Assembly: GCA_016218625.1 (NCBI GenBank)
Contig: JACRDL010000006.1
Span: forward strand, 1-34,081
DNA length: 34,081 nt
Direction of reading: 5' to 3'
DNA from: Elusimicrobiota bacterium
GTDB lineage: Bacteria; Elusimicrobiota; UBA8919
The first letter of the stretch is position 1. The number at the start of each line of letters is the position of its first letter. Of the stretch, positions 29,352 to 32,133 are shown piece by piece. Both the position numbers and the translations under genes were made by a program. Below the pieces are notes generated by a model, which was given only the letters and a program-made list of their open reading frames with translations, was not told where the DNA came from and did not search any database.

Positions 29352-30305
29352 ATGAAACTCATAGACAAGTTCGGAAGAACTATTGATTACCTTCGGATTT
29401 CGGTTACAGACAGGTGTAATTTGAGGTGCGTTTATTGTATGCCCGAAAAAGGCGTTGAAAACATGCCGCACGATGAAATTTTACGCTATGAAGAAATTCT
29501 GAAAATTGTTGATGTCGCAATTTCCCTCGGAATAAAAAAAATTCGCATAACCGGCGGTGAACCGCTTGTCCGAAAAGGGATTGTTCAATTCCTTTGCGAA
29601 TTATCTCAAAGAAAAATTGATTTTTCAATTACCACAAACGGAATATTGCTCGGTGATTTCGCCGATGATTTGAAAAAAGTCGGTGTCAGAAGAATAAATG
29701 TAAGTTTGGACACGCTGGATGAATTAAAGTTTTCTGAAATTACCCGCGGCGGTGTTCTTAAAAAAGTGACAACTGGAATTCTAAAAGCAAAAGCCGCCGG
29801 AATAAATCCGATAAAAATAAACACAGTGGTGTTGTCAGACACAAATGACGAAGATATTAAAAATTTTATTGAATTTGTCAAAGAAAACGGACTTGTTTTG
29901 AGATTTATAGAACACCTACCAATTGTAGACAATAAAAAAACAAACTTTGCCCAATTTGAACAATTGTTCAAATTGAAATATAAACCGATACTGACGGCAA
30001 TTGAGGGCTTTGGCACCGGCAGATATTATAAAATAAACGGCGCCACGGTAGGATTTATCTCAGCATTATCTCGGCCATTTTGCCAAAAGTGTAATCGCCT
30101 GCGGCTTACTTCAGACGGTAAATTACTATCTTGTTTAAGTTCGTTAGATGTCGTTGATATAAAAAAAGCGGTCCGCAATTTTTTTTCAGATGATAGAATA
30201 AAAAATCTTTTTTTTGAAGCGGTGAAAAACAAGCCAGAAAAACATACTTTTGAAAGTCCGCGGGACTGTATGAATATAAAAAATATGGCTGAAATAGGAG
30301 GATAA
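29352..30305 (+). CDS. moaA: GTP 3',8-cyclase (radical SAM)
   Basis: DRCNLRCVYCMPEKG, C-terminal CQKCNRLRLTSDGKLLSC and terminal GG. Confidence 0.95.
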   Translation: MKLIDKFGRTIDYLRISVTDRCNLRCVYCMPEKGVENMPHDEILRYEEILKIVDVAISLGIKKIRITGGEPLVRKGIVQFLCELSQRKIDFSITTNGILLGDFADDLKKVGVRRINVSLDTLDELKFSEITRGGVLKKVTTGILKAKAAGINPIKINTVVLSDTNDEDIKNFIEFVKENGLVLRFIEHLPIVDNKKTNFAQFEQLFKLKYKPILTAIEGFGTGRYYKINGATVGFISALSRPFCQKCNRLRLTSDGKLLSCLSSLDVVDIKKAVRNFFSDDRIKNLFFEAVKNKPEKHTFESPRDCMNIKNMAEIGG

Positions 30306-30453: not shown

Positions 30454-30927
30454 ATGAAAAATTTTACTCATCTTGACAAAAATGGAAAGGCAAAAATGGT
30501 TGATGTCTCCGAGAAGCCCGTAACTTTAAGGTTCGCAAAAGCGGAAGCAACTGTAAAAATGTCGTCGGCGACGGTTGAAAAAATCAAAAAAAATGAAATA
30601 AAAAAAGGTGATGTTCTTACAACGGCAAAACTGGCAGCAATAATGTCGGCGAAAAGCGCAAGCAATTTAATTCCGCTCACCCATCCGATAAAAATAACAC
30701 ATAGCGATATAAAATTTTCACTTTCAGCAAAAAACGGGATAAAAATAATTTCCGAAGTCAAAGTATTTGATACGACAGGATGTGAAATGGAAGCACTGAC
30801 GATGGCTGCGGTTGCCGGGCTTACTATTTACGATATGATAAAAGCGGTTGACAGGTCAGCTGAGATAACAGACATTCGGTTACTTTACAAAAGCGGAGGT
30901 AAAAGCGGACTATGGAAAAGAAAATAA
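30454..30927 (+). CDS. moaC: Cyclic pyranopterin monophosphate synthase
   Basis: FTHLDKNGKAKMVDVSEKPVT, LIPLTHPIKI, GCEMEALTMAAVAGLTIYDMIKAVD. Confidence 0.96.
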   Translation: MKNFTHLDKNGKAKMVDVSEKPVTLRFAKAEATVKMSSATVEKIKKNEIKKGDVLTTAKLAAIMSAKSASNLIPLTHPIKITHSDIKFSLSAKNGIKIISEVKVFDTTGCEMEALTMAAVAGLTIYDMIKAVDRSAEITDIRLLYKSGGKSGLWKRK

Positions 30928-31151
30928 AATGTAAGCAAATGCTTACATTGTGTAAAAGAATTCTATCTTTTGTAAAATCATCAATTAGGCAAAGAGGGTT
31001 TCCTCCAACTGAAAGAGAAATTTCCAAATATTTCCGTTTTTCATCCTCCCGAACTGCACATTATCACTTAACCTTAATGAAAAACAATGGACTATTAAAA
31101 TTCAGATACAAAAAAGGAAGAAGATGTGCCCGAGGTCTTAAATTGAGGTAA
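30912..31151 (+). CDS. Orphan LexA-like winged-helix DNA-binding domain protein (no peptidase domain)
   Basis: RILSFVKSSIRQRGFPPTEREISKYFRFSSSRTAHYHLTLMKNNGLLKFRYKKGRRCARGLKL matches the LexA N-domain pattern; ggaggt SD 11 nt upstream. Confidence 0.75.
   Translation: MEKKIKCKQMLTLCKRILSFVKSSIRQRGFPPTEREISKYFRFSSSRTAHYHLTLMKNNGLLKFRYKKGRRCARGLKLR
30929..30948 (+). promoter_or_regulatory. 20-bp operator-like palindrome copy 1 (inside the LexA-like ORF)
   Basis: ATGTAAGCA-aa-TGCTTACAT perfect 9-2-9. Confidence 0.75.
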
Positions 31152-31156
31152 AAGAA

Positions 31157-31176
31157 ATGTAAGCAAATGCTTACAT
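31157..31176 (+). promoter_or_regulatory. 20-bp operator-like palindrome copy 2 (upstream of the MOSC gene)
   Basis: Identical ATGTAAGCAAATGCTTACAT; shared 24-mer aaatgtaagcaaatgcttacattg. Confidence 0.75.
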
Positions 31177-31186
31177 TGAACAGAAC

Positions 31187-31650
<464 letters not shown>

Positions 31651-31654
<4 letters not shown>

Positions 31655-32133
31655 TTAAAATCGGAATTCTTACATGTAGCGACAAGGGTTCAAATGGCGA
31701 AAGGGTTGACACGTCCGGCGTTGCAATTAAGGAAATTGTAAAAGAAATCGGCGGAGAAGTTATAAAATACGAAATCGTACCCGACGATAAAAAAAATATT
31801 TCCGAAAAATTGACAAAATGGTCTGACAAACTGAAACTGGATTTGATTTTTACGACCGGTGGGACGGGATTATCAAAAAGAGATATTACGCCGGAAGCAA
31901 CGGAAGAAGTCATTGACAGAAAAGTTCCGGGATTTTCGGAAATAATGCGATTAGAAGGTTTTAAGAATACCAAGCACTCAATCTTATCTCGCGGCGTGTC
32001 CGGATTAAGAAAAAAAACACTCATCATCAATCTTCCCGGTTCTGAAAAAGCAGTCCGGGAAAACCTGAAAATCATTCTGCCGTCAATCCCCCACGCGATA
32101 GAAATCATCCGCGGCAAAACAGAACATAAATAG
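31651..32133 (+). CDS. MoaB/Mog family molybdopterin adenylyltransferase-like protein
   Basis: ILTCSDKGSNGERVDTSG, FTTGGTGLSKRDITPEAT, NLPGS. Confidence 0.93.

Follow-up and report, generated by a model that had tools for sequence, protein, structure and literature searches.

A lineage-restricted family of stand-alone LexA-type DNA-binding domains with private palindromes in Elusimicrobia

The window (the whole stretch of 34,081 nucleotides that was analyzed) encodes, between moaC and a MOSC-domain gene, a LexA-type winged-helix protein that proved to be one member of a family of small proteins, nearly all of which have their own palindrome at the edge of the gene. Judged from sequence comparison, these proteins are probably mini-LexA repressors that are restricted to the lineage, cannot be cleaved, and use one private operator class each. 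We observed a covariation of recognition helix and palindrome, a dispersal of the palindromes in genomes that also carry the proteins, and the gain or loss of the gene at one junction.

The mini-LexA gene of the window and its palindromes

The mini-LexA frame matched the LexA DNA-binding domain PF01726 with an E value of 4e-13 (49 bits, against a cut-off of 23.7), and the mini-LexA profile matched the DNA-binding domain of LexA in the PDB (1lea; E value of 6e-13). The fold predicted by AlphaFold2 had three helices (residues 2-28, 34-41, and 46-58), with a core pLDDT of about 90. As had been proposed from the sequence alone, the frame holds only the winged-helix domain and no S24 peptidase; it stops straight after the domain, with no linker or hinge. 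The DNA-binding domain of the LexA family is present, and its self-cleavage domain is absent. Searches for the S24 peptidase gave zero matches across the window's own genome (G000, 86% complete) and two congeners (G001 and G002), and control genomes did respond. An alternative in-frame ATG of the gene lies at 30939, within the first palindrome copy. Directly after moaB, the window carries an N4/N6 DNA methyltransferase gene (PF01555; 32325-33920).

Two identical palindromes flanking the gene had been described, and the 20-mer ATGTAAGCAAATGCTTACAT was found as exact copies at 30929-30948 and 31157-31176, with a spacing of 228 bp. The 24-bp direct repeat was also as described, but the perfect palindrome is 22 bp long rather than 20 bp. 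No further copy of ATGTAAGCAAATGCTTACAT was present in the window with up to three mismatches allowed (chance expectation, 0.01), and a chance origin of the palindromes was ruled out by window, Markov, and synonymous-codon controls. Copy 1 starts 1 to 2 bases after the moaC stop codon (30925-30927), and it covers codons 6-13 of mini-LexA only if the ATG at 30912 is the start. The second-class palindrome in moaA, of class TTTGAACA, was absent from the sequence-only description; it occupies the same codons in G000 and in G006 (another genus of the same family) and is replaced in the moaA of G002. A GAAGTCC micro-repeat was seen within the MOSC gene (31468-31500), and the same variable loop of the G006 MOSC gene has a GTAAGCA palindrome.

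Table 1. Features at the mini-LexA locus of the window
Feature	Position	Strand	Remarks
moaA	29352..30305	+	PF04055, PF06463; carries an intragenic palindrome
Second-class palindrome CAATTTGAACAATTGTTCAAATTG	29952..29975		Within moaA codons (FEQLFK); also in G006 moaA
moaC	30454..30927	+	PF01967; upstream neighbor, overlaps the start of the mini-LexA frame
mini-LexA	30912..31151	+	Stand-alone protein of 79 aa with a LexA-type winged helix; SSRTAHYHL is the recognition helix
Direct repeat AAATGTAAGCAAATGCTTACATTG, left copy	30927..30950	+	24 bp; sequence comparison
Palindrome copy 1 (AATGTAAGCAAATGCTTACATT)	30928..30949		Within mini-LexA codons 6-13
Direct repeat AAATGTAAGCAAATGCTTACATTG, right copy	31155..31178	+	24 bp; sequence comparison
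Palindrome copy 2 (AATGTAAGCAAATGCTTACATT)	31156..31177		Past the mini-LexA stop, just ahead of the MOSC start codon
MOSC-domain gene	31187..31654	+	PF03473; downstream neighbor
moaB-like gene	31651..32133	+	PF00994; downstream

A family with private palindromes and covarying recognition helices

The description of the gene as an orphan did not hold, since about 20 stand-alone relatives (two of them fused) were found by profile, and these family-wide matches ruled out a single isolated gene. With the single protein as the query, 11 of 60 genomes responded, with three loci in the window's own genome, seven in G001, seven in G006 (one of them a full LexA), and two each in G002 and G004. The profile search of 199 genomes of the phylum gave strong short matches only in those five genomes and in one G053 fusion; the remaining matches were in frames of at least 190 aa, mostly about 200 to 250 aa, like full LexA, with the exception of a 97-aa frame in G186. 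The mini-LexA proteins are thus nearly all in one Elusimicrobia family, with up to seven paralogues per genome. A phage or plasmid origin was rejected, as searching phage and plasmid collections at the protein level returned only ordinary LexA-like matches with less than 60% identity. In the literature that was searched, we found nothing that joins LexA, Elusimicrobia, and palindromes, and publications that join LexA, Elusimicrobia, and SOS concern subjects other than such a system.

The paralogues were located at moaC/MOSC, korA/korB, dapB/FAH hydrolase, NhaD-like/dapB, ispA/dxs, hesA/pyrK, and gltD/membrane protein (neighbor names were read from translations by eye). Others lie between parA and parB and upstream of rlmD in G000, G001, and G002, and between oppB and oppC in G001 and G006 (L033 and L034). 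The two fusions carry the mini-LexA domain at the C terminus, one on a prephenate dehydrogenase-like protein (TyrA; G006 L032:685-1740) and the other on a LacI-type regulator (G053 L014:409-1734), with palindromes beside or before both genes.

A private palindrome, xxxxxCAnnTGxxxxx (N5 CA nn TG N5'), was present at the edge of nearly every gene of the family, and the window protein, a stand-alone domain with such a private palindrome, fits this definition of a mini-LexA cassette. The classes were GTAAGCA (the window), TAGAGCA, TAGGACA, TAGTACA, TAGTCCA, TGGAACA, AAGGACA, ATGGACA, CTTAACA, TATACCA, and CCGAACA. A perfect site with 7-bp arms was present at the edge of 13 of the 20 mini-LexA genes, compared with 3.1% of background open reading frames, and most of the other genes had imperfect or shorter-arm sites (operator assignments are imperfect for L011, L014, L021, and L023). 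In six cassettes, including that of the window, a direct repeat of 23 to 29 bp that contains the palindrome was found on both sides, and in two further cassettes the repeat was present twice downstream. The repeats differed from cassette to cassette, save for the two oppB/oppC orthologues, whose shared asymmetric flanks argue for a duplication of DNA and not for selection of symmetry alone.

The palindrome at the window gene has, by sequence, the geometry of a LexA box at its own gene. The consensus box of Gram-positive LexA/DinR, CGAACRNRYGTTYC (PMC2248561), equals the CCGAACAnnTGTTCGG sites, three of which lie at the TyrA fusion of G006, whereas the other classes have AAGC, GAGC, GTAC, GTCC, GGAC, or TAAC in place of GAAC. 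Near two full-length LexA genes of the phylum, we found TAGCACAnnTGTGCTA. The CCGAACAnnTGTTCGG sites often followed one another in tandem, their starts 18, 19, 26, 28, or 35 bp apart (G000 C91:707-822 and C3:6555-6605; G001 C227:4649-4702; G006 C50:10385-10452), and the TAGAGCA pairs of G006 were 36 bp apart. In G000, an intergenic stretch of about 105 bp (C2:23918-24022; L110:13918-14022) holds TAGTACA, TAGGACA, and TAGGACA; the two flanking genes, named by eye, resemble an operon for a metal ABC transporter.

When the recognition helices were aligned with Escherichia coli LexA, whose residue numbering is used here, Gln was found at position 44 in L014, L021, L023, L029, and L030, and the same five had T at half-site position 4 (5 of 5 versus 0 of 15), with A or G in the remaining 15. 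The probability of this association is one over C(20,5), or 6e-5, with kinship ignored, and 1 in 816 when the weaker assignments L014 and L023 are left out. The label requires four changes on the tree, at least three of them forced by the starred branches, and therefore does not reflect one single inheritance. Orthologues in the same operon also differed in both helix and site (L013 versus L023 at parA/parB; L024, L028, and L031 at rlmD), while the oppB/oppC pair L033/L034 kept both across genera.

Dispersed sites and the gain and loss of cassettes

Nor was the site confined to the locus. In whole genomes, GTAAGCA sites numbered 9 in G000, 3 in G001, 2 in G002, and 56 (mostly perfect) in G006; the corresponding counts were 1, 7, 0, and 17 for TAGAGCA, 4, 6, 1, and 19 for TAGTACA, and 15, 25, 3, and 31 for CCGAACA. 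All four classes were absent from G003, G005, G007, and G008, and reversed-pattern controls gave zero throughout. In samples of 139 to 384 kb per genome, CAnnTG palindromes, compared with a fourth-order Markov expectation, numbered 53 versus 4.6 in G006 and 29 versus 2.2 in G000 (both partly picked around known sites, so that these densities are biased upward and the whole-genome counts are unaffected), and 4 versus 1.2 and 5 versus 1.4 in G003 and G007, which are without the small proteins. The 384-kb contig of G004 has AAGGACA and ATGGACA sites, two of each, and these are just the ones at its two mini-LexA genes. An occurrence of the palindrome in many unrelated places had been named as grounds for refutation, and it is literally what we observed; however, the link with the protein is not refuted, since the presence of sites tracks that of the protein family, which suggests targets in trans or a dispersed repeat.

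Within coding sequence, there were 9 GTAAGCA sites versus 0.08 in synonymous shuffles (about 100-fold) and 21 CAnnTG sites of all classes versus 2.65, while control palindromes were at the expected level (4 observed versus 4.2). Both stop-free frames were used (VSKCLH five times and CKxxLT six times), and the constraint thus acts on DNA and not on protein. Elsewhere in G000, the window-class palindrome lies before nikM, inside glyQ, and inside a glcD-like gene. In glyQ, G000 and G006 have exactly the same site despite a third-position identity of 56%; of the six other relatives, the five that were read (the congeners G001 and G002, and G003, G005, and G007) lack it. No gap interrupts the alignment of the GlyQ proteins of G000, G002, and G006 at this point, and TrpB of G006 has two sites and no indel relative to the solved TrpB; with no added length, in-frame insertion of a repeat was ruled out for both genes. 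Weak sites in waaF, argF, and trpS (1 to 2 mismatches; G001/G002) resemble natural CKxxLT codons and were left uncounted as targets, and a search of G000 with the GCTCGTCGG core returned almost exclusively chance matches in coding sequence. Also scattered between genes of G006 is an element of about 95 bp, in which a GTAAGCA palindrome and a fixed linker, TTGAATTTTGCTCGTCGGTAATTTTTGGTTTTT, are followed by another palindrome, CAATTAGnnCAAATGnnCTAATTG; the variable letters of the latter correspond to the sites of different paralogues (examples are L094:2640-2710, L102:9426-9497, and L109:12021-12092).

The sites listed for G000 and G006 are at metabolic and envelope genes. Some results count against a regulator: the putative targets have no obvious common pathway; the CCGAACA sites of G000 and G001 are without an assigned matching protein; and in G006, with its 56 GTAAGCA sites, only a remnant of the matching gene was found, which leaves three explanations, namely sites that have persisted beyond the loss of their regulator, binding by another protein, or an assembly that lacks the intact gene.

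The alternative that a small helix-turn-helix cassette had been inserted at moaC/MOSC was supported by related junctions: moaC and MOSC abut in G002, with neither gene nor palindrome between them, G006 has one palindrome without the gene, and the window has palindrome, gene, and palindrome. The start codon of the window gene is in the position of the one used by MOSC in G002. At korA/korB, the gene is intact in G001, missing in G000 and G004, and reduced to a 3' remnant in G006, where the sequence encodes KKFRYRKNKRCARGIKLR up to a stop and then TTGTAAGCAAATACTTACAT, close to the C terminus of the window mini-LexA plus its palindrome. The moa and kor genes are contiguous in G006, and a move of the window gene from korA/korB to a palindrome resident at moaC/MOSC is therefore possible.

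These junctions could also be explained by a selfish cassette, a small homing or mobile unit made of palindrome and gene, in which palindromes spread as repeats, the gene is inserted or deleted between them by direct-repeat recombination, and regulation is secondary. We regard this as unlikely, although the three moaC/MOSC states, the varied korA/korB junctions, the direct repeats with asymmetric flanks in common (L033 and L034), and the dispersed G006 element all speak for it. Where an insertion with target-site duplication and a related empty site is concerned, empty and one-palindrome junctions are present, but the repeat coincides with the operator. Against a selfish cassette, no enzyme of mobility (transposase, nuclease, or recombinase) is encoded. 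Moreover, intragenic sites arose without a change in length (TrpB), unlike insertions, the parA/parB, oppB/oppC, and rlmD positions are kept between species, and palindromes differ between paralogues of one genome, which indicates that the copies are old. Palindromic elements of Rickettsia and MITE-like repeats similarly occur between and within genes; however, the in-gene copies described here replace codons in place (TrpB and GlyQ), and a cognate protein family exists.

A role in chromosome architecture, with mini-LexA marking dispersed palindromes for the organization or segregation of the nucleoid, in the manner of Noc or RefZ and their scattered palindromic sites in Bacillus, appears improbable. 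Tens of near-identical sites lie in unrelated genes, in both stop-free frames, and between genes, an orthologue is located between parA and parB in three genomes, and the chromosomal position of RefZ motifs is conserved within a genus (PMC6657595), which we counted in favor of such a role; all genomes that carry mini-LexA are fragmented assemblies. Noc and RefZ resemble the present case in having dispersed near-palindromic sites and a small helix-turn-helix protein, with binding by mini-LexA presumed, but they are unrelated proteins, and each mini-LexA has its own site class with its own gene as a main site cluster. The several site classes per genome, the clustering of sites at the regulators' own genes, and the G004 contig with sites only at its two genes all argue against this role. 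RNA-level hairpins (terminators, attenuators, or processing sites) with LexA-like genes nearby by coincidence are very improbable, for although many sites lie in operons near stop codons, the two-base center allows no loop unless pairs break, no T-run is required, LexA boxes have the same CAnnTG core, and the sites covary with the protein helix and depend on the presence of the protein.

A proposed repressor mechanism and its relation to LexA

We therefore return to the mini-LexA repressors with private operators. A cassette would consist of the gene and its own palindrome, in one copy or two, and would lie in an operon or at its edge. A mini-LexA dimer would bind the palindrome with one winged helix per half-site, like LexA on a CGAACAnnTGTTCG-type box. 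LexA dimerizes mainly via its C-terminal domain, which mini-LexA lacks, and this counts against the dimer. At its own gene, the bound protein would limit its own and downstream transcription, as an autorepressor or a roadblock, and in the window it possibly controls MOSC and moaB in this way. The same protein would also bind the dispersed copies, such as those before nikM and inside glyQ and the glcD-like gene. Being unable to self-cleave, mini-LexA would have its activity set by protein level rather than by RecA, and cross-talk between paralogues would be prevented by joint changes of recognition helix and palindrome. The earlier proposal of a compact autoregulated repressor gains indirect support from the palindromes at nearly every gene, their LexA-box geometry, and the helix covariation, with binding itself presumed; palindromes at the genes and junction states thus lend support to both earlier ideas, the autoregulator and the inserted cassette.

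Compared with LexA, mini-LexA has the same winged-helix domain (PF01726), with the same length up to the RGI(R/K)L end, and, by sequence, the same N5 CA nn TG N5 operator geometry with an operator at its own gene. LexA differs in having a hinge, an S24 peptidase, RecA-triggered self-cleavage, and a C-terminal dimer domain. In addition, mini-LexA paralogues have different palindromes, and their neighbors are metabolic operons, not SOS genes. The non-canonical LexA of Bacteroidetes and the products of lexA duplications are similar in being repressors whose palindrome preference diversified after duplication, but they keep S24 and control SOS genes (PMC8565304). LexA motifs vary from phylum to phylum but have been described as stable inside broad groups (PMC8565304), whereas the preference of mini-LexA shifts even between congeners.

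A bolder reading, which we put forward only tentatively, is that of a self-diversifying set of orthogonal regulator cassettes, each with a non-cleavable LexA domain and a private operator, that insert into operons, change specificity by helix-operator coevolution even between congeneric orthologues (parA/parB and rlmD), and drive exact operator copies into essential enzymes (GlyQ, TrpB, and TrpS), overwriting codons in place, as a genome-wide control or chromosome-marking layer. With about ten natural pairs of helix and operator built on the same scaffold, one bacterial family would provide a ready code both for the specificity of LexA and for synthetic repressors that are orthogonal to each other. 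Exact copies of operators in enzyme genes, conserved between genera although neighboring third positions differ, raise the question of what kind of selection would place the site of a regulator among the codons of glyQ or trpB.
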